Shown here in pieces: positions 7,303 through 27,786 of a DNA stretch of 52,585 nt (the first letter of the stretch is position 1; each line of letters opens with the position of its first letter). The position numbers and the translations under genes were made by a program. Source of the DNA: an uncultured Clostridia bacterium. Its GTDB lineage: Bacteria; Bacillota; Clostridia; Christensenellales; Borkfalkiaceae. Location of the stretch: the NCBI GenBank assembly GCA_947631925.1, contig CANRNE010000015.1, positions 1 through 52,585 on the forward strand. The letters are read 5' to 3'. Under the pieces are notes generated by a model that searched no databases, was not told the origin of the DNA, and saw only the letters and a program-made list of their open reading frames with translations.

Positions 7303-7307
7303 CGAAG

Positions 7308-7494: not shown

Positions 7495-7502
7495 AAAATT
7501 TT

Positions 7503-7589
7503 TGGTGCCCGCGATCGGATTTGAACCGATACGTTCTCGCGAACTCAGGATTTTAAGTCCTGTGCGTCTGCCAATTCCGCCACGCGGGC
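7503..7589 (-). tRNA. tRNA-Leu (anticodon UAA), CCA encoded
   Basis: 87 nt with all expected parts on the minus strand: acceptor GCCCGCG pairing with CGCGGGC, D-arm with GGCAGAC, anticodon stem CAGGA/TCCTG with loop CTTAAAA (anticodon TAA), long variable arm typical of leucine, T-loop GGTTCAAATCC, discriminator A and CCA. It has no promoter directly upstream. The nearest one is at 7726-7754, beyond a broken second tRNA-Leu, so both are probably on one transcript. Confidence 0.95.
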
Positions 7590-8826: not shown

Positions 8827-8889
8827 CTAAAAAAATGTCCAAAATCCGCAAAAAAAGTTCTTGATTTCAGGGGGACAAGTGTGTAAAAT
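8827..8889 (+). promoter_or_regulatory. GH3 operon promoter with putative AraC operator box
   Basis: Box CTAAAAAAATGTCC (8827-8840) is followed by TTGATT (8861-8866), a 17-bp spacer and TAAAAT (8884-8889). The same box, the same 34-bp distance and the same -35, spacer length and -10 occur before the GH2-galKTE operon at 13106-13168. Confidence 0.72.
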
Positions 8890-8918: not shown

Positions 8919-8960
8919 GAAGGGGCATGCCCCTTCTTTGTGCGCCGTGTGGCGCACAAA
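8919..8960 (+). promoter_or_regulatory. Double hairpin in the GH3 leader RNA (copy 1)
   Basis: An 18-bp perfect palindrome (GAAGGGGCATGCCCCTTC, 8919-8936) is followed without a gap by a hairpin with stem TTTGTGCGCC/GGCGCACAAA and loop GTGT (8937-8960). It lies about 30 bases after the -10 box and 46 bases before the start codon. The same two-part structure occurs at 27745-27786. Confidence 0.7.
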
Positions 8961-9006
8961 GGGGAAAGCCATTTATAGGCACAAAATTTGGGGAAGGAGG
9001 ATAAAA

Positions 9007-12000
9007 ATGCACAAAGTTCGTTTGTGGCGTGGCCTCACCGCCGTCATGGCAGTTGTACTTTCCTTGGCAATTTTTATGACGGCATTGTTATTCAGCCCCC
9101 TCGTGGAAGGACAAGTCAATATCATCTTGGGGATTGAAGCGCCCACCGTTGATGTGGGTGGGGACACGCTGTATATCGATGTCGGTTATGAGATGAGCAA
9201 AGAGGGGCTGCAGGAAATGCTTGCGGATTCCGATGCACACGATATCCGAACGATGGAAGAGGGCAGTGTTCTTTTGAAAAACGATAGGAACGCGCTCCCG
9301 CTTGCGTCTACAGAGCGCAGAGTCACGCTCTTCGGCCGTGCCGTTGCCGACCCCGTCTATAAGGGCCGTTCGGGCGGTGCGATGCGCGATCCCGCGCGGC
9401 TTGTGAGTCTGTACGACGCCTTGAAGGGGGAGCAATTCGTCATCAACGACACGCTCTTTGACGCCTACAAGAACAGTGCCACGAAGCGTGTGGCAGAGGG
9501 CGCCACGGGGGACAGCACGGGCAGATTTGCGACCGATATCGGGGAAGAGACGGCAGCCTTCTATACGCAGGATTTGCAGAAAAGCTACGAAGACGACTAT
9601 CATGATGTCGCAATCGTGATGTTCGCGCGCGAAACGGGCGAAGGCGCAGACTTGTCGCTCAACGATAAAGACGGCATCTCCCAGCTCGCGCTCCATCCGC
9701 AGGAAGCAGACCTTCTCAAAATGATTAAGAACTCCAACAAGTTCGGGAAAGTCATCGTTCTCATCAACAGCGCCTATCCCATGGAACTTGGCTGGCTGTA
9801 TGAAGAGGAGTACGGCGTAGACGCCGCTCTGTGGATTGGTGGCACCGGGCTCAAGGGATTTGCGGGCGTCGCGAACGTTCTTGTCGGGAAAGCCGACCCC
9901 TCGGGCAGGCTTGTCGATACTTATGCGGCAGATTCGCTGTCGGGCGCTGCCGTGCAGAATGCCGCCTCTTTCCGCTTTACCAACAGCGACTTCAACAGGA
10001 GCTATCTCATCAATGCGGAAGGCATCTACGCGGGCTATAAGTACTACGAATCCCGCTATCAGGACCAAGTCCTCGGTCTTCACAATGCGACGTCCGAAAA
10101 GGGCGCGTTCGCGTCGGAAGGTGGTTGGAACTATGCGGACGAAATGATTTACACGTTCGGCTACGGCACTTCTTACGCGCAGTTCAAACAGGAAATCAAG
10201 AAGGATACGAATGGCGACCCGCTCTTCAAGTGGGATCGTGACACGCACAGAGTGAGCGTCACCGTCACCGTGACCAACCTCGGCGCGCCCGAAGGAAATC
10301 TCTATACGGGCAAGTCCAAGTCGGTGGTAGAACTTTACGCCCAACTCCCTTGGGAAGAGGGGCAGGCGGAGAAATCCGCAATCCAGCTCATCGGCTTCGG
10401 CAAGACGGGTGAGCTCGCCAAGGGTGACAGTGAAGACGTCATTATCGACGTAGACGATTATCTCTTTGCGACCTACGATGAAAATGCCGAGAACGGCGCA
10501 GATGCCATAAAGAAGGGCTGCTATGTCTTCGACGAGGGCGATTACTACTTCGCCATCGGAAGCGACGCCCATGACGCCCTCAACAACGTCCTTGCGGCAC
10601 GCGGTAAGACGGGCATGTTCGACAGCTTCGGCAAGAGCGTAGACGGCGATGCGGATAAAGTTCTCCATGAACCCTTGGACGCGCTTGACAACACGACTTA
10701 TGCGCGCTCCCGCGAGACGGGCAATGTTGTGAGCAACCTCTTCGAGAATGTGGATTACAACTACTGGGTCGAAGATGCCGTTACCTATATGACGCGCAGC
10801 GACTGGAACACCTTCCCGAAGGCCTATACGGGACTGTCCGCGACCTCGGAAATGATTGCGGAATTCAACGATAAGACTTGGGACGTCCCTGCCGACGCAC
10901 CCTCGTTCGAATCCATCAAGCAGGGAGCAAACGCCACCATTAAGTTTGTCGAGCTCAAAGATTTCGACTGGGACGACGAAAGATGGGACACCTTCCTCGA
11001 CCAGCTGACGATTGCCGATATGTGCAAGATGGTCGGCGAAAACTTCGGCCAGCCTGCAATCAAGAGCGTCGGGAAACCCCTCAACAAAAACTGCGACGGC
11101 CCCTCCGGTACGCAAAATTCTTACTTGACGAAATACGGCGGCGGTTCTGCGACGCAGCATGTAAACGAAATCGTCGCGGCCTCTACATGGAGCAAAGAGC
11201 TACTCGAAGAGCGCGGAAAATTCATCGCTTGCGACTGTGCGTTCTCGGGGACGACTCAGATTTGGGGGCCCGGCGCAAATCTGCACAGAACGCCGTTCTC
11301 GGGAAGAAGTTTCGAATATTACAGCGAAGACAGCATCCTGAGCTACTACTGCGGAGCCTATCAGACTGCGGAAGCGCAAAAACTCGGCTGCAATGTTGCA
11401 ATCAAGCATTTCGCGGGCAACGATCAGGAGACCGGCAGACAGGATATGCACAATTTCATGACCGAGCAAAAGTTGCGCCAAGACCCCTTGAAGGGATTTG
11501 AAGGTGCATACACCGGCGTGTACGGAGCAGATGGGACAGAGGGCGCCGCACTTGCTTCGATGATGTCTTACACAAGTTTCGGAATGCAAAGCGAATTCTA
11601 CACCGACAAAGCCGTCCTCACGGACGTCGTCAGGGGCGAATGGGGCTGGAAAGGCGTAAACATCACCGATAACGTCGGCGGAAACAGCACAATGAATGGC
11701 GTGGAAGCCATTGTCGCGGGGACAGATACCTTCAATGCGGGCCCGCAGTTCGGCGATGAAATCAAGGCCTACCTCAACGACGCTTCTCACACCGACCGCG
11801 GCTATGTTCTTTCCTGCTTGCGGCAGGCAAACAAGCGCTTCTTCTATGCGATGTCCCGCTCGAACATCATCAACGGCTTGACTTTGGAGACGGAAGTCAC
11901 GGATTTCACGCCTTGGTGGAAGCCCGTCGTCATCACAGCTTGCTGTGTGGTGGGGGTCGTGACATTGGGTTGCGCCGCAATGTACGTAATTGGGAATTAC

Positions 12001-12039
12001 GGATTAAAAAAGAAGGAGGGGGCAGAGGATGCTGAATAA
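9007..12039 (+). CDS. Glycoside hydrolase family 3 enzyme, domain-permuted, anchored at both ends
   Basis: 1010 residues; ATG 9007 follows GGAAGGAGG at six bases. The domain order is reversed relative to classical GH3. The GH3 C-terminal-type domain comes first (about 60-350, with EEGSVLLKNDRNALPL and WIGGTGLKGFAGVANVLVG). A fibronectin-III-like segment follows at about 380-520. The GH3 TIM-barrel domain comes last (about 660-940, KNCDGPSGTQ, WGPGANLHRTPFSGRSFEYYSED, NVAIKHFAGND). The nucleophile is probably D888 in GVNITDNVGG. Such permuted enzymes are known beta-glucosidases in rumen Clostridia. Residues about 10-35 and about 965-990 are hydrophobic, so both ends are membrane-anchored with the enzyme presumably outside. 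The stop overlaps the next gene by 11 bases. Exact substrate (beta-glucoside, xyloside or other) is not predictable. Confidence 0.88.
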   Translation: MHKVRLWRGLTAVMAVVLSLAIFMTALLFSPLVEGQVNIILGIEAPTVDVGGDTLYIDVGYEMSKEGLQEMLADSDAHDIRTMEEGSVLLKNDRNALPLASTERRVTLFGRAVADPVYKGRSGGAMRDPARLVSLYDALKGEQFVINDTLFDAYKNSATKRVAEGATGDSTGRFATDIGEETAAFYTQDLQKSYEDDYHDVAIVMFARETGEGADLSLNDKDGISQLALHPQEADLLKMIKNSNKFGKVIVLINSAYPMELGWLYEEEYGVDAALWIGGTGLKGFAGVANVLVGKADPSGRLVDTYAADSLSGAAVQNAASFRFTNSDFNRSYLINAEGIYAGYKYYESRYQDQVLGLHNATSEKGAFASEGGWNYADEMIYTFGYGTSYAQFKQEIKKDTNGDPLFKWDRDTHRVSVTVTVTNLGAPEGNLYTGKSKSVVELYAQLPWEEGQAEKSAIQLIGFGKTGELAKGDSEDVIIDVDDYLFATYDENAENGADAIKKGCYVFDEGDYYFAIGSDAHDALNNVLAARGKTGMFDSFGKSVDGDADKVLHEPLDALDNTTYARSRETGNVVSNLFENVDYNYWVEDAVTYMTRSDWNTFPKAYTGLSATSEMIAEFNDKTWDVPADAPSFESIKQGANATIKFVELKDFDWDDERWDTFLDQLTIADMCKMVGENFGQPAIKSVGKPLNKNCDGPSGTQNSYLTKYGGGSATQHVNEIVAASTWSKELLEERGKFIACDCAFSGTTQIWGPGANLHRTPFSGRSFEYYSEDSILSYYCGAYQTAEAQKLGCNVAIKHFAGNDQETGRQDMHNFMTEQKLRQDPLKGFEGAYTGVYGADGTEGAALASMMSYTSFGMQSEFYTDKAVLTDVVRGEWGWKGVNITDNVGGNSTMNGVEAIVAGTDTFNAGPQFGDEIKAYLNDASHTDRGYVLSCLRQANKRFFYAMSRSNIINGLTLETEVTDFTPWWKPVVITACCVVGVVTLGCAAMYVIGNYGLKKKEGAEDAE

Positions 12040-12451
12040 ATTATACACGAAGTTTGTAAAGGACAGGACGGTCGGATATTGGCTTGCGGTTGCAGCGGCA
12101 GCGGTCTTACTCATAGCCGATATCATCTTCATCGCGACCGATGTCGGAGACAGAACGTTTTCCGTCGTGACGTTTGTGTTCGTTCTGCTCGGCGTTGCGT
12201 CCGAAATCGTCTACATTGTTCTCGATAAAAAAGTCTTGGATTTTCTTCCCGTTCTGAGCTGCGTGTTCTACGGCGTGGCAATCGGACAGCACTGGAATTT
12301 GGGACTTGGCACCCTTTCCGATGTCTGGAACGGTGTCACTTTCGTCGGGGGCAATCCCACTGCGGCACTTTCTTTCGGCATCATCTTCACAATCTGCACC
12401 GTAGCGGCAGTAGTATCCTGCTTCATGAAGCAGAAAAAAGAAATCAAATAA
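12029..12451 (+). CDS. Small membrane protein of the GH3 operon, unknown function
   Basis: 140 residues starting inside the end of the GH3 gene (11-base overlap), with ribosome binding site AGGAGGGGG. Four hydrophobic segments can be seen at about 18-40, 45-65, 72-90 and 108-132, and a basic tail (KQKKEIK). No catalytic motif or known family was recognised. Overlap with GH3 implies translational coupling and suggests it helps place or stabilise the doubly anchored enzyme, or moves its product. That role is inference only. Confidence 0.7.
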   Translation: MLNKLYTKFVKDRTVGYWLAVAAAAVLLIADIIFIATDVGDRTFSVVTFVFVLLGVASEIVYIVLDKKVLDFLPVLSCVFYGVAIGQHWNLGLGTLSDVWNGVTFVGGNPTAALSFGIIFTICTVAAVVSCFMKQKKEIK

Positions 12452-12477
12452 AAAAATAAAATTTAAGGAGAACTATC

Positions 12478-13011
12478 ATGAAAAAACCAGCAAAAATTCT
12501 TATGATCGTAACTGCGCTCATCGCTTGCCTCGCAATGACCATCGGCCTCGCCGCTTGCGGCGGCAATGCCGCTGAAGTCAAGGACATCTATGTCGCCAAC
12601 GGCACCTGCACGGGTCCCGCAGACGACGGCGGCCCTCATGTCATCAATACGAGCTCCACAAACGTTATCCTCTACTCGGACAACACCTACATGCTTGTCG
12701 TCACTGCAAACGGGTATATGAATGCGTACGGCAACTCGCAGGTCATGAAGGCTTGCACAACCAGTTACGGAACATACACCCTCACCGTGAGCGAGGACGA
12801 TGAAGAAGTTGCTACGCTTGAGCTTTCCAAACCCACCCGTATCATTTCCAATACGACGATTACCTCCGTTGGTTCAACCTACTTCGACACCGCGGACGCG
12901 AGCACCTTTGAAGAATCCGAGACGACCGCAGAAGATATGTTGAACGACGGAAAGGCGTACACGCTTACCGTCAATGTCGTCACCAAGACGGTTACGTCGG
13001 GACTCAATTGA
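12478..13011 (+). CDS. Small lipoprotein of the GH3 operon, unknown function
   Basis: 177 residues, ATG preceded by AAGGAG. A signal peptide with a clear lipobox (GLAAC, lipid-modified C27) is followed by a beta-rich domain of about 150 residues without recognised motif. It contains many Thr, Ser and Asn and alternating hydrophobics (TYTLTVSEDDEEVATLELSK). It is the last gene of the GH3 operon and would sit on the outer face of the membrane, possibly binding glycan or the GH3 enzyme. Confidence 0.75.
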   Translation: MKKPAKILMIVTALIACLAMTIGLAACGGNAAEVKDIYVANGTCTGPADDGGPHVINTSSTNVILYSDNTYMLVVTANGYMNAYGNSQVMKACTTSYGTYTLTVSEDDEEVATLELSKPTRIISNTTITSVGSTYFDTADASTFEESETTAEDMLNDGKAYTLTVNVVTKTVTSGLN

Positions 13012-13053
13012 CGCGGCAGTTCAATCTTTGAAAGCATAACCTTTCTCTCCTCC

Positions 13054-13089
13054 AAGGCAGCTCGTCCGCTCGTCGGACGGGCTGCCTTC
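13054..13089 (+). terminator. Strong hairpin after the GH3 operon
   Basis: AAGGCAGC...GCTGCCTT with an inner CGTCCG/CGGACG stem lies 43 bases after the lipoprotein stop. A long T-run is missing, so it may be an imperfect terminator or a processing/stability hairpin. Confidence 0.5.
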
Positions 13090-13105
13090 TCATGGTGGGG
13101 AAGAC

Positions 13106-13168
13106 CTAAAAAAATGTCTAAAAAATACAAACGGTTTTCTTGATTTCGCGCGCGCGAAGGAATAAAAT
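13106..13168 (+). promoter_or_regulatory. GH2-galKTE operon promoter with putative AraC operator box
   Basis: Box CTAAAAAAATGTCT (13106-13119), TTGATT (13140-13145), 17-bp spacer, TAAAAT (13163-13168). Layout is identical to the GH3 promoter at 8827-8889. A second possible -35 (TTGACA at about 13182) lacks a good partner. Confidence 0.7.
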
Positions 13169-13222
13169 ATAATTGTCCTCTTGACAAACGGGGAATTTTG
13201 TGAAACAATAGGAGGGAACTTT

Positions 13223-15568
13223 ATGAAACGCAATGATTTTAATAAAAATTGGAGATGGCGCAGGTGCGGACAAGAGGCTTGGCAGGATGTCACGCTCCCG
13301 CACGATGCGATGCTCTCGGAAGACCGCACGCCCACGGCGCCGAGCGGGATTAACGCAGGCTGGTACGAGGGTGCGGACTATGAATATGAGAAAAATTTCA
13401 CGGCGGAGGGGGACTGCGTGCTCGAGTTCGAGGGGGTCTACCACAATGCCGAAGTGTATATAGACGGCGAGAAGAGGGCATTCCGTCCCTACGGCTATAC
13501 CAACTTCTACGTTGAAGTCCCCAAGGGGGAGCACACGGTGCGCGTCTTCGCCCAAAACGCCGACCAGCCCAACAGCCGCTGGTACACGGGTGCGGGCATC
13601 TACCGTCCCGTCGCCCTCTGGACGGCGCCCAAGGAGCACATCCTCTTAAACGGGGTGCACTGCTCGACGGTGTCCATTCGTCCCGCCGTCGTAAAAATCT
13701 CCGTGAAGACGAACGCCGAGGGCGAGGTGAACGTAAAACTCTTTGACGGCGAAACGCTCGCTGCCGAGGCGGTCGGGGCCACCCATGCCTGCGAGGCGGT
13801 GTTCGAAATCCCCGTCGAAAACGCAAAACTCTGGTCGCCCGAGACGCCTTTTTTATACGGCGTCCGCGTGGATTTCGGGGAAGATTCTTATGAGGGCACG
13901 CTCGGCATCCGCACCATCCGCTGCAACGCCAAGGAGGGGTTTGTCCTCAACGACAAGCGGGTCATCTTATACGGCGCGTGCATTCACAGCGACAACGGCA
14001 TTCTCGGCGCGCGCAGCTATCCCGAAGCGGAGGAGCGCAGGGTGCGCATTCTCAAATCCTGCGGCTACAATGCCATTCGTTCGGCACACAACCCCTGCGC
14101 CAAGTCCCTTCTCGACGCCTGCGACAGGCTCGGTATGCTCGTCATGGACGAGTACACCGACATGTGGTACATCCACAAGAACAAATACGACTACGCCCTG
14201 CATCTCGCCGATTGGTGGGAGAAAGACCTCGAGGACATGGTGGAGAAGGACTTCAACCACCCCTCCGTCGTGCTCTATTCGACGGGCAACGAGGTGGGGG
14301 AGACCTCCGAGAGGCGGGGCATCGAGCTGGTGGAAAAATTTGCCGACTTCCTGCACGGGCTCGACCCCGACCGCTTCGTCACATGCGGCATCAACATCTG
14401 GTTCAACGCCATGTATCACATGGGGTTCGGGCAGTATTCGGACGCGAAGGCGGAGAAGCAGGCGAAGGCGGCGGCAGGGAAGAAGAAACCCGCCGTCGGG
14501 AGCGAATTTTTCAACAACCTCGCGGGCATGGTGGGCGCCGATTTCATGAAACAGATGGCGCGCCTTCCCATCTGTGACCGCGTCACGCGGGAGGCCTATG
14601 CGCGCATGGACGTCGCGGGCTACAACTACGGCATCGGAAGATATCGGCACGACATCAAGAAATATCCCGACCGCGTCATTTTAGGCAGTGAGACGTTCTG
14701 CTCGGACGCCTACAAGTTCCGCAAGTTGGCGGAGGAGAATCCCGCCATCATCGGCGACTTCGTCTGGGCGGGCATGGATTATCTCGGCGAAGTAGGCGTC
14801 GGGAGCTGGGAATACCGCGAGTACGCGCCCGACTTTACGCACGGCGTCGGCTGGCTCACGGCAGGCAGCGGCAGAGTGGACCTCGTCGGAAATCTCCTCG
14901 GCGAAGCGCTCTACACAAGGGTCGCCTTCGGACAGGAGAGCACGCCGCAAATCGCCGTCGTCCCCGTCTCGCACACGGGGGAGAAGCATTCCCCGTCCGC
15001 GTGGAAGTTCTCCAACGCCCTCCCGAGCTGGAGCTGGAACGGCCTCGACGGGAGGAAGGCGCACGTCGAAGTGTACTCCGAGGCCCCCAAGGTAGCCCTC
15101 TTTGTCAACGGCAAGAAGGTGGGGGAGAAGAAGCGCGGCAAGAACTGCAGGTTTGACTTCAGGACCCGCTACCAAGGCGGGGAACTCTGCGCCGTCGCAT
15201 ACGCAAAAGACGGGAGGGAGCTCTCCCGCAACACCTTGAAGACGGCGGGGGAGGAGACGGTGCTCTCCGTCCTTCCCGAGACCAAAGAGGCCAAGGCAGG
15301 CGCGCTCGTCTTTGTCAACCTTCGGTTTACGGACGGTGCGGGCACCGTCAAGCCCTTGGAGCGCGGCAGGGTGAAAGTTTCCGCCGAGGGCGGGAAGCTC
15401 CTTGCGGTCGGCTGTGCCGCGCCCTACAACGAGCTCGGCTACACGACGGACGAGACGGACACCTACTACGGCGAGGCGCTCGCCGTCGTCGAGATGGGAG
15501 AAGCCCCTCTCACCGTGCGCGCAACGGACGGCAAACACGAGGGGAGCGCGCAAATTTTCGTAAAATAA
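13223..15568 (+). CDS. Glycoside hydrolase family 2 enzyme (probable beta-galactosidase)
   Basis: 781 residues from ATG 13223, which has AGGAGGG six bases upstream. Domain order is GH2 sugar-binding (about 10-140: NWRWRR, VTLPHDAML, SRWYTGAGIYRPV), GH2 immunoglobulin-like (about 145-235), TIM barrel (about 240-540), then DUF4982-like and other beta domains to the end. Acid/base E357 in STGNEVGE and nucleophile E490 in LGSETF are both present. There is no signal peptide, so it is cytoplasmic and needs imported oligosaccharide. Directly upstream of galK, galT and galE, it most likely frees galactose for the Leloir pathway. Beta-glucuronidase or other GH2 activities are less likely but not excluded. 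Confidence 0.88.
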   Translation: MKRNDFNKNWRWRRCGQEAWQDVTLPHDAMLSEDRTPTAPSGINAGWYEGADYEYEKNFTAEGDCVLEFEGVYHNAEVYIDGEKRAFRPYGYTNFYVEVPKGEHTVRVFAQNADQPNSRWYTGAGIYRPVALWTAPKEHILLNGVHCSTVSIRPAVVKISVKTNAEGEVNVKLFDGETLAAEAVGATHACEAVFEIPVENAKLWSPETPFLYGVRVDFGEDSYEGTLGIRTIRCNAKEGFVLNDKRVILYGACIHSDNGILGARSYPEAEERRVRILKSCGYNAIRSAHNPCAKSLLDACDRLGMLVMDEYTDMWYIHKNKYDYALHLADWWEKDLEDMVEKDFNHPSVVLYSTGNEVGETSERRGIELVEKFADFLHGLDPDRFVTCGINIWFNAMYHMGFGQYSDAKAEKQAKAAAGKKKPAVGSEFFNNLAGMVGADFMKQMARLPICDRVTREAYARMDVAGYNYGIGRYRHDIKKYPDRVILGSETFCSDAYKFRKLAEENPAIIGDFVWAGMDYLGEVGVGSWEYREYAPDFTHGVGWLTAGSGRVDLVGNLLGEALYTRVAFGQESTPQIAVVPVSHTGEKHSPSAWKFSNALPSWSWNGLDGRKAHVEVYSEAPKVALFVNGKKVGEKKRGKNCRFDFRTRYQGGELCAVAYAKDGRELSRNTLKTAGEETVLSVLPETKEAKAGALVFVNLRFTDGAGTVKPLERGRVKVSAEGGKLLAVGCAAPYNELGYTTDETDTYYGEALAVVEMGEAPLTVRATDGKHEGSAQIFVK

Positions 15569-15585
15569 CTTTTGGGGGAACGGAT

Positions 15586-18194: not shown

Positions 18195-18197
18195 ACT

Positions 18198-19205: not shown

Positions 19206-19216
19206 CCGACACGAAA

Positions 19217-19249
19217 AAAACCGTCCCGGGATTGCGGGACGGTTTTTTC
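19217..19249 (+). terminator. Bidirectional terminator between galE and the P-type ATPase gene
   Basis: A 12-bp stem, AAAACCGTCCCG (19217-19228) with CGGGACGGTTTT (19235-19246), has A-run and T-run flanks and can serve both convergent genes. Confidence 0.92.
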
Positions 19250-19263
19250 ATACAATTCTCGTT

Positions 19264-21741
19264 TTATTTGTTTGGCACGGCGAGTTCGCAGAGCTTCTGG
19301 AAGACGGTGGAGACGGGGAATGCCGCGAGCGACACGCAGACGATGTAGAGAACTTGCGGGAAGGTGAGCACGAGGTCCGCCCATGTCGTGACGGCTTCCC
19401 CCTCCCCATAGGAGTAGACGAGGTTGCCGAGCATGGGCACCGAGAGCACGATGATGCAGATTGCCACCGACACACAGTACACCCCGAAGCGGATGACGTT
19501 CATGGGCTGGAGAATGCGGTACAGCGTCACGAGCCCGCCGAAGGTGAGCGCAAGCAGGAAGAGCGCACTGCGCGTCGCGGGGTCGGAGAAGCCGTACGCC
19601 GCGGGCAGATACAGCGAGGCGACATACACCGCCATCACGGACAGAACGAGGGTGAGCGAGTTGGGGAAACTTCGCGACAGGACGTAGGGGATGAACTTCC
19701 CCTTGACCCGTTCGCCGTTGGGTTGGAGGGAGACGACAAAGGAGGGGAGCGCCGCGATGAACATCTCAAAGAGCAACATGTTGTTGGTCTTGAAGAAGTA
19801 GGGCTCGCCGAGCGCGATGCAGATGACGGCGAGCATCGTGATAAACAGCGTCTTGGTGATGTAGAGCGCGGCACACGACTTGATGTTGTTGATGACCCGT
19901 CTGCCCTCATAGACGACGGTGGGAAGGCTCGTGAAGTTGTTGTCCATGAGCACGAGGTGGGAGACGTTGCGCGCCTCCTCCGCACCCGAGGCGACGGAAA
20001 TCGCACAGTCCGCTTCCTTGAGGGCGAGAATGTCGTTGACGCCGTCCCCCGTCATGGCGACGGTGTTGCCGAGCTTTTTGAGGGCATTGACGAGCACCGC
20101 CTTCTGTTCGGGCGTCACCCGTCCGAAGACGGTATACTGCCCCGCGACCGTCTCCACCTCGATGTCGGTGAGCCCGTCGAGGGAGATGTATTTTTCCGCA
20201 TCCTTGACGCCCACCCGTTTGGCGACTTCGGACACCGTGAGGGGATTGTCGCCCGAGATGATGCGAATGTCCACGTCGTTCTTTCGGAACCAGCGGACGG
20301 TTTCGGCGGCGTCGGGACGGATGTTATCCGCGAGCGCGATGAGGGCGGCGGGACGGAGCACTGCGGGCGGCTTGTCCCCCGCGATGGGGTTGGGCGAATA
20401 GGCGACGAGCAGCACGCGCAGCCCCTTCGCCGCATAGCCCCTGATGGCCTTGTCGATTTTGGGCGGCATGGGACGGAGCACGAATTCGGGCGCGCCGAAG
20501 ACGTACGTTCCCACCTCCCCGAAGGTGACCGCCGAAAGCTTTCTCCTCGAAGAGAAGGGAATGACCGCCGTGGCCTTGAGCTCGGCGGAGGCGGGGAAGC
20601 GCTCCTTGAGCGCAATCGAGGTCTGGTTGTTGTCGTCGAGGGCGGCGAGCATGCTCCCCATGATTTCCTCAAAGGGAACCTCGCTGTACTTGTTGAGCAT
20701 GCGCACGTCGCTCACCGTCATGCGCCCGTCCGTGATGGTCCCCGTCTTGTCGAGGCAGAGCACGTTGACGCGGGCGAGCATCTCGAGGGAGTAGAGGTCC
20801 TGCACGAGGGTCTGCTTCTTGGCGAGCCGCCTCTCGCCAATCTCCATCGCAAGGGAGGTGAGGAGCATGAGCCCGGAGGGAATCATGCCGATGACGACGG
20901 CGCCCGTGAGCTGGATGGACTGCGGAATGTTGCCGCCCGTTGCCTCCCAAGTCCGCCAGAACATCAGCGCGGCGATTCCGACAATGAGAATGCCGATGAC
21001 GCGGATGAAGAGCTTGATGGAGGACATAATCTCCGAATGCGGCTTCTTGTACTTCTTCGCCTTGGAGGTGAGCGAGCTCAAATAGGTCGCCCCGCCCACG
21101 CGCTCCACGCGCACGCGGCACTTCCCGCCCGCGATGTACGTCCCCGCATACAGCATGTCGTCGGGACGCTTCTTTACCGGGACGCTCTCCCCCGTGAGAA
21201 GAGACTCGTTGACTTCGGCAATGCCGTCGGCAAGGCGGCAGTCCGCGGGGACCTGGTTGCCCGTCTCGAGGAGGAGCACGTCGTCGAGCACGATGTCCTT
21301 GGTGGGAATCTCGCGCAGGTGCCCGCCCCGCATGACTTTGGAGGTGGGGGTGACGAGCACGGCAAGTTTGTCTATCTGCCGCTTGGCGAGAATCTCCTGC
21401 ACGATGCCGATGAGCAGGTTGACGCCGAAGATGAGCACGAACAGGAACTGCGTCCACGGCGCGCCTGCATAGATGAGCGCGATGGCGACGAGCACGCAGA
21501 GCAGGTTGAAGAAGGTGCAGATGTTGCCGAGGAAGATGCTCGTGTACGACTTGGAGTATTTTTTGTTGACGTCGTTGAAGAGGAACTGCTCGAAGCGTTT
21601 GTCCACCTGCTCCTGCGAAAGACCTTCGCGGAGCGCGGGAGAGAACCGCTCGACCTCGTCGGCGGAGGGAATATTTTTCGCGTGACGGAATTTTTTGCGG
21701 ATTTGTTTGAGTTTGTCCTGCGGGGACCGTTCGTTGTTCAT
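19264..21741 (-). CDS. Cation-transporting P-type ATPase (CtpE/PacL-like)
   Basis: 825 residues. An actuator domain with TGES (183-186), phosphorylation motif DKTGT (D331), nucleotide-binding domain, hinge TGDGVND, and about ten membrane helices. It drives an ion across the membrane with ATP. In Ca2+ pumps the fourth helix carries PEGL, but here 287-291 reads IPSGL, replacing the acidic ion ligand. With no heavy-metal-binding domain or CPC motif it is not a copper/zinc pump. Best guess is a Ca2+- or Mg2+-like substrate, similar to CtpE-type pumps. It has its own promoter (21771-21799) and is convergent with galE. Confidence 0.85.
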   Translation of the reverse strand: MNNERSPQDKLKQIRKKFRHAKNIPSADEVERFSPALREGLSQEQVDKRFEQFLFNDVNKKYSKSYTSIFLGNICTFFNLLCVLVAIALIYAGAPWTQFLFVLIFGVNLLIGIVQEILAKRQIDKLAVLVTPTSKVMRGGHLREIPTKDIVLDDVLLLETGNQVPADCRLADGIAEVNESLLTGESVPVKKRPDDMLYAGTYIAGGKCRVRVERVGGATYLSSLTSKAKKYKKPHSEIMSSIKLFIRVIGILIVGIAALMFWRTWEATGGNIPQSIQLTGAVVIGMIPSGLMLLTSLAMEIGERRLAKKQTLVQDLYSLEMLARVNVLCLDKTGTITDGRMTVSDVRMLNKYSEVPFEEIMGSMLAALDDNNQTSIALKERFPASAELKATAVIPFSSRRKLSAVTFGEVGTYVFGAPEFVLRPMPPKIDKAIRGYAAKGLRVLLVAYSPNPIAGDKPPAVLRPAALIALADNIRPDAAETVRWFRKNDVDIRIISGDNPLTVSEVAKRVGVKDAEKYISLDGLTDIEVETVAGQYTVFGRVTPEQKAVLVNALKKLGNTVAMTGDGVNDILALKEADCAISVASGAEEARNVSHLVLMDNNFTSLPTVVYEGRRVINNIKSCAALYITKTLFITMLAVICIALGEPYFFKTNNMLLFEMFIAALPSFVVSLQPNGERVKGKFIPYVLSRSFPNSLTLVLSVMAVYVASLYLPAAYGFSDPATRSALFLLALTFGGLVTLYRILQPMNVIRFGVYCVSVAICIIVLSVPMLGNLVYSYGEGEAVTTWADLVLTFPQVLYIVCVSLAAFPVSTVFQKLCELAVPNK

Positions 21742-21770
21742 ACAGCCTTCTTTGAGAAGAGGATACTCTT

Positions 21771-21799
21771 ATTATACACCAAATGCGCGGGAAAGTCAA
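21771..21799 (-). promoter_or_regulatory. Promoter of the P-type ATPase gene
   Basis: Minus-strand TTGACT (21799-21794), 17-bp spacer, TATAAT (21776-21771). Confidence 0.75.
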
Positions 21800-21870
21800 A
21801 ACGTTGCGGGCAACAGTTTGCGCTTTGGGGCGGAAATTTGCGAAGCGGGAGATTTGTCCGCCCAAAAGCG

Positions 21871-21899
21871 TTGCCTTTCCGCCCGAAAAGGTGTATAAT
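21871..21899 (+). promoter_or_regulatory. Promoter of serS
   Basis: TTGCCT (21871-21876), 17-bp spacer, TATAAT (21894-21899), 31 bases before the serS start. There is no T-box-like leader, as the 5' UTR is too short. Confidence 0.75.
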
Positions 21900-21929
21900 G
21901 GAGAAAACATTGCAAGAAAGAGGCAGGAA

Positions 21930-23219
21930 ATGATTGATATCGCCCTTTTGCGCGCCGACCCCGACCGCGTGCGCGCCAACCTCGAAAAGAAATTCCAGCA
22001 TCACAAACTTCCCCTCGTGGACGAGGCGCTCGCCCTCGACGAACAGCGCCGCGCCCTGCAGACGGAGGGGGACAACCTCCGCGCGAGCCGCAACGCCCTC
22101 TCCAAGCAGATAGGGCAGCTCATGCGCGAGAGGAAGACGGAGGAGGCTGAGGCCGTCAAGGCGGAAGTTGCAAAGGACGCCGCCCGTCTCGCGGAAATCG
22201 AGAAGGAGACCCCCGAAGTCGAGGAACGGCTGAAGCGCGTGATGATGCGCATTCCCAACTTCATCTCGCCCGAGACGCCCATCGGCAAAGACGACAGCGA
22301 AAACGTCGAGGGGCAGCGCTTTTTGGAGCCCAAGGTCCCCGATTTCGAAGTTCCCTATCATCTCGACATCCTCGAACGGCTTGCAGGCATCGACATCGAC
22401 AGCGCGAGAAGGACGAGCGGGCAGGGATTCTACTACCTCACGGGGGACGTCGCCCGCCTGCACTCCGCCGTGCTCACCTATGCCCGCGACTTCATGATTG
22501 ACAAGGGCTTCACCTACTGCATTCCGCCCTTCATGATTCGCTCGGACGTCGTCTCGGGCGTCATGTCCTTTGAGGAGATGGAGGGGATGATGTACAAGAT
22601 TGAGGGGGAGGACCTCTTCCTCATCGGCACGAGCGAGCACTCGATGATCGGGCGGTTCATGAACACGACCCTTGCCGAGAGCGAACTGCCGCTCACGCTC
22701 ACGAGCTATTCCCCCTGTTTCCGCAAGGAGAAGGGCGCGCACGGCATCGAGGAGCGGGGCATCTACCGCATCCACCAGTTCGAGAAGCAGGAGATGATTG
22801 TCATCTGCAAGCCCGAGGACAGCGCGGTGTGGTACGAGAAGATGTGGAATTACACCGTGGAGCTCTTCGTCTCGATGGGCATTCCCGTCCGCACCCTCGA
22901 ATGCTGCTCGGGGGACCTCGCCGATCTCAAATACCGCAGTGTGGACGTGGAGGCATGGTCGCCCCGCCAGAAGAAGTACTTCGAAGTGGGGTCCTGTTCC
23001 AACCTCACCGACGCACAGGCGAGAAGACTGGGCATCCGCTACAAGGGAGAGGGGGGCACGAAGTTCGCGCATACCCTCAACAACACCGTCGTGGCGCCCC
23101 CGCGCATGCTCATCGCCTTCCTCGAAAATCACCTCCGCGCGGACGGCAGCGTGGAAATCCCCGAAGTTCTCCGCCCCTACATGGGGGGGAAGAGCGAAAT
23201 CTCACCCAAGACCAAGTAA
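21930..23219 (+). CDS. serS: Seryl-tRNA synthetase
   Basis: 429 residues from ATG 21930 (AGGCAGG upstream). The N-terminal helical arm that grips the tRNA-Ser variable arm occupies about 30-105. Class II motifs follow: TSEHSMIGRF, motif 2 FRKEKGAHG...GIYRIHQFEKQE, SCSNLTDAQARR, and motif 3 NNTVVAPPRMLIAFLENH. It charges tRNA-Ser with serine and is essential. It heads a probable transcript with the exonuclease and RsmF-like genes (gaps of 6 and -4 bases). Confidence 0.95.
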   Translation: MIDIALLRADPDRVRANLEKKFQHHKLPLVDEALALDEQRRALQTEGDNLRASRNALSKQIGQLMRERKTEEAEAVKAEVAKDAARLAEIEKETPEVEERLKRVMMRIPNFISPETPIGKDDSENVEGQRFLEPKVPDFEVPYHLDILERLAGIDIDSARRTSGQGFYYLTGDVARLHSAVLTYARDFMIDKGFTYCIPPFMIRSDVVSGVMSFEEMEGMMYKIEGEDLFLIGTSEHSMIGRFMNTTLAESELPLTLTSYSPCFRKEKGAHGIEERGIYRIHQFEKQEMIVICKPEDSAVWYEKMWNYTVELFVSMGIPVRTLECCSGDLADLKYRSVDVEAWSPRQKKYFEVGSCSNLTDAQARRLGIRYKGEGGTKFAHTLNNTVVAPPRMLIAFLENHLRADGSVEIPEVLRPYMGGKSEISPKTK

Positions 23220-23225
23220 AGACGG

Positions 23226-24173
23226 ATGAAATATCTCTTTTTCGACATCGAATGCGCCTGCGTATTCAAAAATGTTGCCAAGATGTGCGCGTTCGGGTAC
23301 GTCCTCACGGACGAAAACTTCAACGTGCTCGCCCGCGAGGATATCCTCATGAATCCCAAAGGGAAATTCCATCTGATGGGCAGGAAGGGCAAGGAGGGAC
23401 TGGTCCTTCCCTACGACGAGGACTTCAAGGAGTTCCCGCCCTTTCCCGCATCCTATAAAAAGCTCAAATCGCTCCTCGAGGACAGGGAGAGCATCGTTTT
23501 GGGACATGCGACGCTCAACGACGTCAACTACCTCAACCTCGAGACCAACCGCTTCAAACTCCCGTCCTTCACCTTCGAATATCACGACACGCAGTTCTTC
23601 TGGATGAACGTGACGGGGGAATTCTCCCATCAGGTGGGGCTGGGGGCGATGGCAGAGGCGCTCGGCGTCGAATTCACCCCCCACCGCGCCGTGGATGACG
23701 CCTATGCCACCATGCGCGTCTGCGAGGCGCTCTGCAAGCGGGAGGGGACGGACGTCGCGGGGCTCATCTCCCGCTACAACATCCGCGGCGGACGGCTGGA
23801 AAATCACCGCATCCGCACCTGCACCTCCCTCGGACAGAAGAAATATTACGCGGAGAAGGCGCGCGAGCGCGAGCAGTACCACCGCGCGCACGAGGAATTT
23901 TACCGCTACGTCAATAAATACATGCACAGGCGGAGAAAGGGCCCCCTCGAGGGCAAGGTGTTCTGCTTCGCCAAGGACGTCGAGGTGGATGTGCCCCGCT
24001 CCGTACAGCTCGTCGCGGACATCTTCGCCGCAGGGGGAAGGTACACCTCCCATCCCGCGGAGTGCAACGTCTACGTCGCAAAGAGCGAGGAGGGGATGCG
24101 CTTTGAGAGCGCCATCAAGGGCGGCGCGCGCTATCTTCCCTACGAAGAGGCGCTCAAAGGAATCGAGGCATGA
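23226..24173 (+). CDS. DnaQ-like 3'-5' exonuclease with C-terminal BRCT-like domain
   Basis: 315 residues. The N-terminal DEDDh exonuclease shows D7 and E9 (FFDIECA), the GHATLNDVNYL block and HRAVDDAY with the catalytic His and Asp. After a basic, charged helical linker (about 195-240, EKAREREQYHRAHEE) the C-terminus (about 240-310) has a BRCT-like pattern (GKVFCFAKDVE, then VQLVADIFAAGGRYTSHPAECNVYVAKSEE). The combination suggests a DNA repair or proofreading nuclease recruited by BRCT contacts. Exonuclease assignment is solid; the BRCT call is moderate. Confidence 0.8.
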   Translation: MKYLFFDIECACVFKNVAKMCAFGYVLTDENFNVLAREDILMNPKGKFHLMGRKGKEGLVLPYDEDFKEFPPFPASYKKLKSLLEDRESIVLGHATLNDVNYLNLETNRFKLPSFTFEYHDTQFFWMNVTGEFSHQVGLGAMAEALGVEFTPHRAVDDAYATMRVCEALCKREGTDVAGLISRYNIRGGRLENHRIRTCTSLGQKKYYAEKAREREQYHRAHEEFYRYVNKYMHRRRKGPLEGKVFCFAKDVEVDVPRSVQLVADIFAAGGRYTSHPAECNVYVAKSEEGMRFESAIKGGARYLPYEEALKGIEA

Positions 24174-25462
24174 AACTTCCCGAAGAATTTTTGAGAATCA
24201 TGCAAAAAAGGCTGGGCGACGCATTCCCCGCCTTTTTGCATTCTTATGAGACGCCCGCCTGCCGCGCCCTCCGCGTCAACACGGGCAAAATTTCCGCCGC
24301 GGAATTTGCCGCCCGCGCGCCCTTCCCCTTGGGGGAGAGGGTGGAGTGGGAGCAAAGCGCCTTCTACGTCGACGGGGAGAAGCTCGGGGCGGACGTCTAC
24401 CACTTCGCGGGGCTGTACTACCTGCAGGAGCCGTCCGCGATGTGCGCCGCGCCCCTTCTCGAGGTGAAAGAGGGGGAGCTCGTGCTCGACCTCTGCGCCG
24501 CGCCGGGGGGGAAAACTACCCAGCTCGCCGCGGACATGGGTGGCTCGGGCGTGCTCATTGCCAATGAAATCGACTTCAAGCGGGCGAAAATTTTGTCGCA
24601 AAATGTCGAACGCATGGGCATTTCCAACTGCGCCGTCACCTGCGCCTCTCCCCGGACGCTTGCCGAACACTTCGGCGCCATCTTCGACAAAGTTCTGGTG
24701 GACGCCCCCTGTTCGGGCGAGGGGATGTTCAAAAAAGAGGAGAGCGCCGTCCTCGAATGGAGCAGGGAGAATGTTCTGGGTTGCGCCGCAAGGCAGAGGG
24801 GCATTCTCGACTGCGCGGCAAATCTTGTCAAAGCCGGCGGGCGGATGGTGTATTCCACCTGCACGTTCTCCGAGGAAGAGGACGAGGGACAGGTGGAGGA
24901 CTTCCTCCGCCGCCACCCCGAATTTGCCCTGCTCTCCATGAAAAAACTCCTCCCGCACGAGGTGAGAGGAGAGGGGCATTTCGCCGCCGTCTTCGAAAAA
25001 CAGGCGGGGGAGACCCGCCGCATAAAACCCTGCAAAATTTCGTCGAATTCCGACGCAAATCGCGCGTTTTCGACATTTTCCGACAAGTTTTTCGGGGAAA
25101 TTCTCCCCACGGACCGCGTGCACTTGGGGCAGGACCGCAAGATGTCCCTCGTCCCCGCGGGCATGCCGCAGCCCTCGGGCATGTTCCTGTTCCGCCTCGG
25201 CGTCGAATTGGGCGAATGGGACGGGAGAGTGTTCAAGCCCGCGCACGCCCTCGCGATGGCGCTTGGAAATAGGGCCGCGCGCAAAGTCGTCCTCTCCCGC
25301 GAGGAGGCGAAGACGTACCTGCGCGGCGAGACGGTGGAAAACAATCTTTCGGACGGCTGGTGCGCCGTCTGCGTGGAGGAGTTCCCGCTCGGCATCGGGA
25401 AATGCGTCTCGGGCACGGTGAAGAACCACCTTCCCAAGGCGCTCCGCCTATACCATGGCTGA
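24170..25462 (+). CDS. RsmF/RsmB-like rRNA (cytosine-5)-methyltransferase
   Basis: 430 residues, starting with a 4-base overlap (ATGA) on the exonuclease gene. SAM-binding motif I is DLCAAPGGKTTQLA. The catalytic cysteines stand in DAPCSGEGMFKK (motif IV) and YSTCTFSEEEDE (motif VI), the two-Cys arrangement of the NOL1/NOP2/Sun family. The C-terminal RsmF-type extension (about 290-430) contains a PUA-like region. It methylates a cytosine in 16S rRNA using S-adenosylmethionine. The precise base cannot be told from sequence. Confidence 0.9.
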   Translation: MKLPEEFLRIMQKRLGDAFPAFLHSYETPACRALRVNTGKISAAEFAARAPFPLGERVEWEQSAFYVDGEKLGADVYHFAGLYYLQEPSAMCAAPLLEVKEGELVLDLCAAPGGKTTQLAADMGGSGVLIANEIDFKRAKILSQNVERMGISNCAVTCASPRTLAEHFGAIFDKVLVDAPCSGEGMFKKEESAVLEWSRENVLGCAARQRGILDCAANLVKAGGRMVYSTCTFSEEEDEGQVEDFLRRHPEFALLSMKKLLPHEVRGEGHFAAVFEKQAGETRRIKPCKISSNSDANRAFSTFSDKFFGEILPTDRVHLGQDRKMSLVPAGMPQPSGMFLFRLGVELGEWDGRVFKPAHALAMALGNRAARKVVLSREEAKTYLRGETVENNLSDGWCAVCVEEFPLGIGKCVSGTVKNHLPKALRLYHG

Positions 25463-25464
25463 AC

Positions 25465-26253
25465 TCAGCGCCGCTTTTCCCGCTTTTTCTTGACGCGGTC
25501 GAGCTCGGGAAGATAGGCGACACTCCAGTCGTAGCTCTTGCAGAATTCCCCGTTATAGTCCCCCTTGCCGCTCCGCAAAAACGTCCAATAGTCGCAGACA
25601 ATCCCCTTTTTGTCGAGGGTAAGTTTTGCGCGCTCGTACCCCACGCAGTGAATGCCGTGCTCGTCGAGCGTCTTGCGGAGGCGGAAGACGGCGTTCCGAT
25701 AGGAAATTTTTGCCTTCTCGACGTCGGAATTCTCCCAGAGGTGGTCGATGGCGTCTGTCATCGTCAGCGTCTTGCCGTTGTAGGCGAGGAGAAGGGCGAA
25801 GAGCTCCTTGGACTTGGCGGAGGGGAAGTCGATGAGCTCCCCGTCCACGAAGCAGTCGAAGACGTCGAACATCTTCACGGTGAGCACGGGCGTGCGCTTT
25901 TGCAGGATGTTGAGAAGCTCCGCCAGCCGCGCGGACTTGAAGGGCTTATACAAAAATCCGACGGTGTGCGAACGCACCCGCTCGCTGAGGTCGTCCTCGG
26001 TGACCGCCATGCCCGTGATGAAGACGAGGGCGACGTCGGGGCAGACGCCGATAATCTTTTCCGCAAGGTCCAGCCCGCTGACCGAGGGCATGCCGATATC
26101 CGTAAACACCGCACCGACGGTGTTTTCTTTTACATAATCGAGGATGGCGGCCTCGTCGTCCTTGAAAAATTTATATTCGACGTCATAGCCGATGCTCTCG
26201 CCGAGAAAGGACTGCAGGGCGTGCATCTCGTCGTCGATGACCACGATTTTCAT
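25465..26253 (-). CDS. Response regulator with SARP/BTAD-like winged helix
   Basis: 262 residues. The receiver domain (about 1-120) has IDDE, phosphoacceptor D52 (FTDIGMPS), the FITGM block and KPFK lysine. The C-terminal half (about 125-240) is a winged helix of the OmpR/SARP type (FDCFVDGELIDFPSAKSKE, then LWENSD...NAVFRLRKTLDEHG, then CDYWTFL). It is not LytTR or AraC, although its kinase is LytS-like. It overlaps the kinase gene in the ATGA manner (26250-26253), with the kinase translated second-last on the transcript. Targets are unknown; the adjacent LRR lipoprotein gene is a candidate. Confidence 0.83.
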   Translation of the reverse strand: MKIVVIDDEMHALQSFLGESIGYDVEYKFFKDDEAAILDYVKENTVGAVFTDIGMPSVSGLDLAEKIIGVCPDVALVFITGMAVTEDDLSERVRSHTVGFLYKPFKSARLAELLNILQKRTPVLTVKMFDVFDCFVDGELIDFPSAKSKELFALLLAYNGKTLTMTDAIDHLWENSDVEKAKISYRNAVFRLRKTLDEHGIHCVGYERAKLTLDKKGIVCDYWTFLRSGKGDYNGEFCKSYDWSVAYLPELDRVKKKREKRR

Positions 26254-27614
26254 GTAAGGTCTCCTTTGGGGGGAAGGGGAATGAGGATTTTCACCCTGCA
26301 GCCCGCATCCGGGCGGCTTAAAACCTCCGTCTTCGCCCCGAGGGTGAGGAGCAGGCGGTCGGACGCGTTGCGGATGCCGTGGGAGGAGGGGGAAACGGTT
26401 GCGGGGTCAAAGCCCTTGCCGTTGTCCGAAATTTCGAGGACGGCGAAGTCTCCGTCGCGAAGGGAGGAGACCACGACGCAGCCGCCCGTCGCCTCCACGC
26501 CGCTGTACTTTATCGCATTCTCGACGAAGGGCTGGACGGAGAGGGGCGGGACCGAATAGTCGGTATATTCGATGTTGAAGAGCACATCCACCTTTTTATC
26601 CCGCTTTAAGTTTTCGAATTCGGTATAGCTGAACACGGCGTCGAGCTCCTCCTCGACGGGGACGAGTTCGCTGTCGAAGGCGCGCACGCTGTCGCGGAGA
26701 AAGTCGGACAGGTGCTTCACGCCCGCATCCCCCGCGGCGAGGTCCTCATGGTAGAGGGCGCGCACGGCCTCGAGCGCGTTGAAGAGAAAGTGCGGCTTGA
26801 TTTGCCCCGAGAGGGCGCGGCTCTCGAACATCTCCGCGCGGCTTCGGTACTCCGCGGACTTCACCGCCTTGCTGTCCGAGCGGATGGTGAAGGTGAGATA
26901 GACGAGAAGGTAGAGGGAAAGGCTCGCCGTAAGATAGGCAAAGGTGACCCCGGGAAGGAGGGACGTCGCCCCCGAAAAGCAGAGCGCATTGACCGCCTGC
27001 GCGCCCGAGACAAGGCAGAACATCAGCGCGGTGATATACGTCGTAAAGGCGATTTTGTGCGTCTTTTCCGCCTTGAAGACGATGGTGCAGAAGGCGAGCG
27101 AGAAGAGCAGAATGAGCGCAAATCCGAAGGGATAGCCGTATCCGAAGGGGAGCGCCGCCGCATAGCCCGCGAAGAGGAGCACGGCGGGGATAAAGATGGC
27201 GTAGCACCACTTGGCGCGCATCTTCAGCCCGTACAAGTACATCACATAGCCGCAGCAGGCGAGCGCGACGAAGAGGTAGGCGCATTCGCTCACATAGCCG
27301 AAGAGAAGGGGGGAGAGGGGTGCATTTGCGCTCTCGAAGAAGAGGGCGGTGTCCGCGGAGAAGAAGTAAAAAACGACCGTGCCGCCCGCAATCAGCATCG
27401 TGTGGTAGGTGCTGTCGTCGATTTTGAACACGGAGACAATCTCGACGCCGAAGACGCAGAGAAGGAGGCCGACGACGGTGAGATGGACGATGCCGACGGC
27501 AAGATTCGGGACGGACGGCACGCCGCAGAGGGTGGGGACGGCGACCGCCGCCGCGCCGAGCAGGACGGAGACTGCCACCCCAATCCCCGTAAACGTCAAC
27601 GCCTTGTTTTTCAT
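26250..27614 (-). CDS. LytS-type membrane sensor histidine kinase
   Basis: 454 residues. The first 245 residues hold about seven to eight hydrophobic helices. After a linker comes the His_kinase domain with QIKPHFLFNALEAV (H275) and a HATPase region with PFVENAIKYSG (N box) and DNGKGFDP (G1). It phosphorylates the winged-helix regulator downstream. The gene has its own promoter (27621-27649) and is divergent from the LRR lipoprotein gene. The signal is unknown, as the membrane part does not resemble a characterised sensor. Confidence 0.87.
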   Translation of the reverse strand: MKNKALTFTGIGVAVSVLLGAAAVAVPTLCGVPSVPNLAVGIVHLTVVGLLLCVFGVEIVSVFKIDDSTYHTMLIAGGTVVFYFFSADTALFFESANAPLSPLLFGYVSECAYLFVALACCGYVMYLYGLKMRAKWCYAIFIPAVLLFAGYAAALPFGYGYPFGFALILLFSLAFCTIVFKAEKTHKIAFTTYITALMFCLVSGAQAVNALCFSGATSLLPGVTFAYLTASLSLYLLVYLTFTIRSDSKAVKSAEYRSRAEMFESRALSGQIKPHFLFNALEAVRALYHEDLAAGDAGVKHLSDFLRDSVRAFDSELVPVEEELDAVFSYTEFENLKRDKKVDVLFNIEYTDYSVPPLSVQPFVENAIKYSGVEATGGCVVVSSLRDGDFAVLEISDNGKGFDPATVSPSSHGIRNASDRLLLTLGAKTEVLSRPDAGCRVKILIPLPPKGDLT

Positions 27615-27620
27615 ACTATC

Positions 27621-27649
27621 ATCATACCATACTCAAAAAATTTTTTCAA
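27621..27649 (-). promoter_or_regulatory. Promoter of the LytS-like kinase operon
   Basis: Minus-strand TTGAAA (27649-27644), 17-bp spacer, TATGAT (27626-27621), a few bases before the kinase start. Confidence 0.65.
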
Positions 27650-27698
27650 GAATTTTTTCGGAAAACCCCGAATATTAACGCTTCTTTAACGGTTGGTA

Positions 27699-27707
27699 TG
27701 ATAAAAT
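27699..27707 (+). promoter_or_regulatory. Probable extended -10 promoter of the LRR lipoprotein gene
   Basis: TGATAAAAT (27699-27707) is an extended -10 (TGn + TAAAAT). No good -35 precedes it. It lies 38 bases before the double hairpin. Confidence 0.45.
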
Positions 27708-27744
27708 AGGGGAAAATCGGGCCGAAATCGGCGAAATTCTTGCG

Positions 27745-27786
27745 TAAGGGATATATCCCTTATTTGTGCGCCTTTGGGCGCACAAA
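27745..27786 (+). promoter_or_regulatory. Double hairpin in the LRR lipoprotein leader RNA (copy 2)
   Basis: Perfect 18-bp palindrome TAAGGGATATATCCCTTA (27745-27762), then directly the hairpin TTTGTGCGCC-TTTG-GGCGCACAAA (27763-27786). The second stem is identical to copy 1 at 8937-8960. The palindrome differs in sequence but keeps full pairing. It ends 72 bases before the start codon. Confidence 0.7.

Follow-up and report, generated by a model that had tools for sequence, protein, structure and literature searches.

The DNA analyzed here, referred to as the window, is a stretch of 52,585 nucleotides (nt) from an uncultured Clostridia bacterium (GenBank assembly GCA_947631925.1, contig CANRNE010000015.1, positions 1 to 52,585). 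Its plus strand carries two copies of a two-part palindromic element, each located in the leader of a gene encoding a large exported protein. In both copies, a perfect even palindrome of 18 bp (P1) is joined with a gap of 0 to a 10-bp hairpin (P2). Copy 1 consists of P1 GAAGGGGCATGCCCCTTC at 8919–8936 and P2 TTTGTGCGCC-GTGT-GGCGCACAAA at 8937–8960; copy 2 consists of P1 TAAGGGATATATCCCTTA at 27745–27762 and P2 TTTGTGCGCC-TTTG-GGCGCACAAA at 27763–27786. A first-pass annotation of the window had described this arrangement, with identical P2 stems, at 8919–8960 and 27745–27786, and the sequence bears it out to the base.

The two target genes are unrelated. Copy 1 ends 46 nt before the ATG at 9007 of an exported GH3 family protein of 1010 amino acids (9007–12039, plus strand; Pfam GH3 C, GH3 N and Fn3-like), whose N-terminus is hydrophobic (score 2.76). 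Copy 2 ends 72 nt before the ATG at 27859 of a BspA-type leucine-rich-repeat (LRR) lipoprotein of 1121 amino acids (27859–31224, plus strand; Pfam LRR_5, 1.6e-63), with an N-terminal lipobox-like ALVAC as judged by eye. The location before large surface protein genes that had been proposed is thereby confirmed. On the minus strand, a cupin-AraC regulator gene (7854–8744) diverges from the GH3 gene, and a sensor histidine kinase gene (26250–27614) diverges from the LRR gene.

Both copies lie shortly downstream of predicted promoters. For copy 1, the best-scoring site is sigma-A-like (TTGATT, 17-nt spacer, TAAAAT; 8861–8889, plus strand; score 12.5), and for copy 2 the putative promoter is TTAACG, 16-nt spacer, TATGAT (27675–27702, plus strand; score 9.2). 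The TAAAAT boxes to which the annotation had pointed are present at 8884–8889 and 27702–27707, 29 and 37 nt before P1, respectively; at copy 2, the overlapping TATGAT at 27697–27702 is the better-scoring −10 box. No intrinsic-terminator T run follows P2, the window copies continuing with GGGGAAAG and TAAAAAAT, and the T-rich sequence after P1 in many copies is, by eye, P2's own arm. The 3' flank of copy 1 (8961–8980, plus strand) contains a weak family motif, UUAWnGG, in the form TTATAGG; the motif, defined after the flanks had been inspected, is absent at copy 2.

The arrangement is rarely expected by chance. When up to three mismatches are allowed, the window contains the P2 pattern exactly twice, the expectation from 100 dinucleotide shuffles being 0.00, and RNA folding of each window leader was better than all 200 of its shuffles (z −4.5 and −4.1). 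A sequence-agnostic descriptor, which requires an even, perfect palindrome (16 bp or longer) joined directly to a hairpin (8 bp or longer), found six places in 452,585 bases and none in three full shuffles; the five of 21 sources that hold the six places had been chosen for a known match, and the other 16 stretches gave none. A hairpin descriptor in which G-U pairs are allowed overlooks the element, since P2 is able to continue outward into P1.

A family of elements within and beyond the genome

The genome to which the window belongs (1.92 Mb, 75 contigs) was searched for further copies. The P1 core pattern occurs at 14 places, against 19 for a reversed control, and perfect P1 palindromes number five, all with an abutting P2 and all before large exported proteins. 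The three copies outside the window lie on other contigs, before proteins of 706, 1330 and 1073 amino acids. The genome thus holds at least five copies, and the element is a family rather than a pair. One of these copies, C12, scored 27.8 bits and was absent from the listed matches of every genome search.

Covariance models were built in turn from four copies of this genome (R1), then from 16 (R2) and 32 (R3) rows. At 33 bits or more, R3 marked 24 of 103 genus genomes. Outside the genus, R2 marked six of the 297 order genomes searched, and outside the order it marked two of 391 class genomes. R3 marked none of 398 phylum genomes besides the source genome, the best other match reaching 28.5 bits. 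Samples taken for genus, order, class and phylum share genomes, the source genome being in each, and the counts are lower bounds, since filters lose weak matches and only some first-look candidates were scored (for example 16–64 per genome). A copy in genome G001 has arms quite unlike those in the source genome. The annotation had proposed such a search, with random scatter as the outcome that would speak against it; what emerged was further matches, a preference for leaders, and covariation.

The P2 sequence used alone as a query was a poor guide: among 15 loci found in other genomes, only one (L007) has the element, away from the matched place. Another candidate, L018, was rejected by eye as a pair of terminator-like hairpins. 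Weak matches dropped by eye as terminators, as coding sequence or for want of P2 comprise most of L063–L082 together with L112, L117, L118, L120–L122, L132–L141 and L240–L247. Among these, L243 (genome G675, about 1501–1540, minus strand; 28.5 bits) combines an odd P1, whose loop is AGG, with a perfect P2, no open reading frame (ORF) having been found behind it, and is possibly a distant or unrelated form; L135 is a less clear twin hairpin whose centre is not self-complementary.

Searches of known families were negative. With Rfam 15, the window and 20 element loci gave only tRNAs at curated thresholds, and the sub-threshold matches on copy 1 fell far short of them (best E 0.36). No description of a twin-palindrome leader element was found in searches of the open-licence literature. 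On comparative grounds, which are strong, we regard this as a real element family, filed under no known family and, by that literature search, undescribed.

Anatomy of the element

P1 is a perfect palindrome of 14–24 bp with a core of AAGGG or AAGGGG (/CCCTT) in most of 52 elements. Its G-run and C-run are separated by 4 bp in 32 of these elements, by 2 bp in 15 and by 6 bp in five. The central four bases are CATG in 19, GTAC in 10, CGCG in seven, TATA in six, GCGC in three, and ATAT, GATC and CTAG in two each, with a single non-self-complementary CTTG (L130). The scripts that listed the elements require even, near-perfect palindromes and so favour a self-complementary centre; in alignment A6, whose model does not require self-complementarity, the centre is nonetheless self-complementary in all 32 rows (26 four-letter centres and six two-letter TA centres). 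L130 and the uncounted L243 are the counterexamples. P1 centres otherwise keep self-complementarity as their bases and length change.

P2 has arms of about 7–13 bp beyond P1, with a loose 5' consensus UUYGUGCG, and often has 1–5 bases in common with the right arm of P1. Its loop is 3–6 nt long in 29 of 37 cases and 0 or 2 nt long in the other eight. An A-rich stretch follows on the 3' side, with the weak motif around UUAWnGG. The likelihood of this flank motif was 228, against 179–198 in six shuffles (25 restarts for the true flanks, eight for the shuffles). Its simple form occurs in 20 of 46 flanks, a set without L110, L186 and L125, the last of which has a short flank. The 26 nt that follow contain it in three of 46, and among 300 shuffles the mean is 12% and the maximum 35%.

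All 52 P1+P2 stretches fold into two predicted hairpins (mean −22.5 kcal/mol; mean z −5.0 with 60 shuffles each). L113, whose P2 had been taken from the wrong strand, is left out of this list and of the 50-element context set used below, and four counted elements (L113, L161, L185 and L191) have one mismatch in the script reading.

Pairing is conserved through compensatory change

The annotation had read the two different yet fully paired palindromes of the window as compensatory change in a conserved structure. This view is supported, mainly by copies in relatives; the two window copies alone are thin evidence, because their P2 arms are identical. Across 30 distinct copies in alignment A6, 486 of 489 cells are paired (99.4%), none of them as G-U, and in 116 cells both partners have changed. 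Pairing and both-side changes at this level were reached by none of 500 shuffles, and slid partners pair in 41–64%. These counts come from model matches (17 and 30 sources) at hand-picked loci, in alignments fitted to the structure and with related rows that are not independent.

Orthologous leaders provide a comparison in place. Homologous GH3 leaders from four genomes (G000, G049, G256 and, by its N-terminus only, G106) differ in P2, yet all four P2 sequences are completely paired. Another orthologous set has four genomes in which P2 is alike and the P1 centre is GATC, GATC, CATG or CTAG; G027 and G035, two further members of the set, have no intact element. Pairing is therefore kept in place, beyond what inheritance would provide. 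Taken together, comparison of the copies demonstrates strict Watson–Crick twin hairpins, as predicted structures, with extensive compensatory change.

Two further structures were observed at these leaders. In the leader of the L056-gene orthologue of G035 (L183), rearranged palindromes (CCCCTTCGGAAGGGG plus a C/G-rich hairpin) occupy the element's place beside a similar 3' flank, and are perhaps a decayed or inverted element. Four homologous GH3 leaders (L153, L155, L156 and L157) carry a second hairpin followed by GTTATAA near the start codon; it occurs with and without the twin element, and its loop is purine-rich in several cases.

Position, orientation and target genes

To the extent that promoters can be scored, they lie on one side of the element. 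A promoter score of at least 9 was found in the 75 nt upstream of 18 of 50 elements and in the 75 nt downstream of none; in 110-nt windows the share was 49% of 43, against 15% in shuffles. Among promoters scoring at least 9, the −10 box lies 11–77 nt before P1. For 29 of the 50 elements, an open frame on the same strand, 150 codons or longer, ends no more than 250 nt upstream, although some of these frames may be spurious, such as that of copy 2, which lies opposite the kinase gene. L055 and L114 follow an upstream frame by 27–30 nt, and such copies therefore seem intergenic.

All 23 genus matches of at least 35 bits, 16 of which are training rows of the searching model, have a same-strand start codon within 300 nt downstream (L109 by eye). 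A hydrophobic N-terminus was scored in 34 of 40 downstream ORFs, compared with 57 of 265 background ORFs (p 7e-15). The 40 were obtained from 44 elements, as L116, L125, L129 and L185 gave no ORF, and the six misses are two wrong starts (L019, L109), two weak scores (L108, L128) and two proteins that are not exported (L110, L191). Outside the training rows, seven of the eight R3 places of at least 33 bits precede proteins that are, by eye, exported or membrane-anchored. Sixteen further downstream proteins include Pfam matches to Big_3, solute-binding proteins, List_Bact repeats, subtilase and the prepilin methylation motif, and five of the 16 have no Pfam match. The same comparison thus demonstrates a place downstream of predicted promoters or between genes, a single orientation, and a strong preference for genes of predicted exported proteins.

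Spread between leaders

Copies within the source genome resemble one another over short distances only. Copy 1 resembles C4 over 72 bp (83% alike), and copy 2 resembles C5 over 52 bp (86.5% alike). Both pairs stand before unrelated proteins, and neither shows any further similarity at E 1e-3 within 150 bp. Between copies 1 and 2 the likeness is 80% over 41 bp, and C12 has no match to another copy of its genome. Likeness before unrelated genes is confined to 50–70 bp; the copies are dispersed, bounded and independent of flanking genes, as in known repeat families.

Conversely, homologous leaders may differ by the element. Four GH3 leaders have no element although they can be aligned with those of G000, G049 and G256 both at the promoter and close to the start codon; they belong to G504, G329 and G410 and, with less clarity, G340. 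Tandem P1-P2 units of 37–38 bp occur at L110 (G128:C53), L131 (G371) and L186 (G807); L110 precedes a LytTR response regulator gene, and L131 was not counted. The short-range likeness, the patchy GH3 leaders and the tandem units together point to a module that is mobile or copied, or else frequently lost. Within one genome, comparison demonstrates copying between unrelated leaders, as read from this local likeness.

Other features of the window

Downstream of the LRR gene, an inverted repeat with 31-nt arms (81% complementary) lies at 31560–31641. A 1258-codon open frame at 32123–35899 (minus strand) has no Pfam match. A tyrosine integrase gene adjoins a tRNA gene (7506–7589, minus strand) within 6058–7589, a typical place for an integrated element, and genes for a GHKL histidine kinase and an adjoining LytTR response regulator, in an agr-like arrangement, occupy 1231–3245 (minus strand).

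Interpretation

We propose that the element is a dispersed, transcribed, cis-acting twin-hairpin module, about 42 nt of P1+P2 with a short 3' flank, that would set the fate of secretome mRNAs. We put the probability of this reading at roughly 0.4. Action on the transcript of the downstream gene is suggested by the location past promoters, by the orientation and by the class of genes. In such a mechanism, the element would work after transcription start, on the mRNA; P1 stacked with P2 would form a rigid double hairpin where the coding segment has its 5' end, whether primary or processed, and a single-stranded contact may be provided by the A-rich/UUAWnGG flank. The outcome would be the level of survival or processing of a long exported-protein mRNA, as in clostridial selective RNA processing and stabilization. 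With these precedents, we take it as most likely that the element controls mRNA fate through the way in which the coding segment is processed or stabilised at its 5' end.

Described systems offer partial parallels. Stem-loops are reported to set mRNA fate in a clostridial operon (PMC10311766; PMC4423207). These are likewise intergenic at secreted-enzyme genes of Clostridia, where they set transcript fate (PMC10311766); they belong to one operon, whereas the present two-part palindromic element, described from sequence, stands before unrelated genes and also directly after promoters. The xyl-doc 5' untranslated region of Clostridium papyrosolvens has two perfect stem-loops before secreted hydrolases and blocks transcription in a reporter (PMC5815224); that leader exceeds 400 nt, and the available account, on whose description the comparison rests, mentions no abutting palindrome. 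The PBC-10 motif, a candidate cis-regulatory RNA for which a dimeric ligand has been suggested, also contains a palindromic stretch (PMC6429828); by its description, it differs in including a terminator stem.

Several observations weigh against an effect on mRNA fate. Further pair types number 29, against 27.2 in shuffles (130 of 500), which is no excess. Selection on RNA normally tolerates G-U pairs, yet these make up 0 of 486 paired cells, compared with 33 of 506 (6.5%) in terminator-like hairpins (p 1.7e-10, with relatedness ignored), a control drawn from the source genome and G001 in which some two-way hairpins count on both strands. Neither this absence nor the self-complementary P1 centre is explained by the proposed mechanism, and a generic stabiliser would have no need of such a centre or of the AAGGGG conserved in the stem. 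The targets also include products that are not exported, namely a LytTR response regulator (L110), proteins of xylose-isomerase-like (L129) and GH88 (L191) type, and a LuxS-like frame named by eye (L131), with L129 and L131 outside the 40 scored ORFs. Finally, the element was found at only five of 30 GH3 loci from 161 family genomes, most homologous leaders being without it. The undescribed leader RNA suggested by the annotation stands in part: a conserved structure does lie in exported-protein leaders, but many copies seem to be intergenic and not 5'-terminal, and zero G-U pairs are not what a plain RNA-only reading predicts.

A doubtful but serious alternative is a co-opted dispersed palindromic repeat whose structure is kept as DNA, for example as a single-strand hairpin during spread, with any effect on genes secondary. 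Repetitive extragenic palindromic (REP), BOX and miniature inverted-repeat transposable element (MITE)-like repeats are short, dispersed and palindromic. The present element is so too, and likeness limited to 52–72 bp before unrelated proteins, homologous GH3 leaders with and without a copy, tandem units and absent G-U pairs all fit such an origin. It differs by its single orientation and leader place in all 23 strong genus matches, the secretome bias of downstream genes, in-place compensation of P2 among homologues, and the position of all five perfect AAGGG palindromes of the source genome in exported-protein leaders. The annotation's refuting picture of a mobile repeat is therefore partly apt for the mode of spread, dispersed before unrelated genes and patchy in homologous leaders, and fails as random scatter without covariation.

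The missing G-U pairs and the self-complementary centre are the best reason for keeping a reading at the level of DNA or of a duplex. A bolder form, which we consider unlikely, is a patchy, widespread secretome regulon in which pairing would be selected as an exact Watson–Crick duplex and not as an ordinary RNA fold. The self-complementary P1 would fit mRNA–mRNA dimers or a requirement on both DNA strands, P2 would be a fixed clamp, and copying into leaders would recruit genes.

Cis-acting antitermination, HK022 put-like or through a hairpin and boxA as in rrn leaders, could protect long secretome transcripts; we judge this improbable. The element does offer two abutting stem-loops soon after a promoter and long target genes (706–1330 amino acids in the source genome). 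The 3' flank motif, in excess over shuffles though defined after looking, resembles boxA, whose form in this genus may differ. HK022 put RNA is a phage element of about 70 nt that forms two stem-loops in cis, with a triplex and RNA polymerase contacts and with antitermination demonstrated, and putL lies just after its promoter (PMC9378689). A leader of two stem-loops is predicted here for 52 of 52 elements; the length of about 70 nt is not matched, and the triplex and polymerase contacts are features described for put.

Less probable still is that a dimeric regulator binds P1 as its DNA operator, a short way past the promoter. A conserved AAGGG(G) half-site in a perfect dyad near promoters, with the conserved bases in the paired part, is operator-like. 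The dimeric-regulator site that the annotation offered would nevertheless need a fixed geometry, and the G-run/C-run spacing of 4, 2 or 6 bp (32, 15 and five of 52) disfavours it because the half-sites are rotated against each other; the source genome's perfect AAGGG palindrome never occurs without P2 (five of five), and the −10 box stands at 11–77 nt. LoaP-dependent antitermination, in which a small UNCG-type leader hairpin controls a long operon in a Bacillus together with the LoaP protein (PMC12691694), shares the small leader hairpin with our element but is disfavoured because none of the 103 genus genomes has a match over the LoaP cut-off, and the window P2 loops are GTGT and TTTG, with loops varying across the family, rather than UNCG-type.

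If the proposed module is functional, one short portable element would, across little-studied members of one bacterial class, unite glycoside hydrolases, solute-binding lipoproteins, adhesin-like repeat proteins and prepilins, and searches for genes of this kind could start from it. That a self-complementary centre goes with a lack of G-U pairs is an unusual constraint, and raises the question of whether a leader hairpin may be selected as RNA or as duplex DNA.

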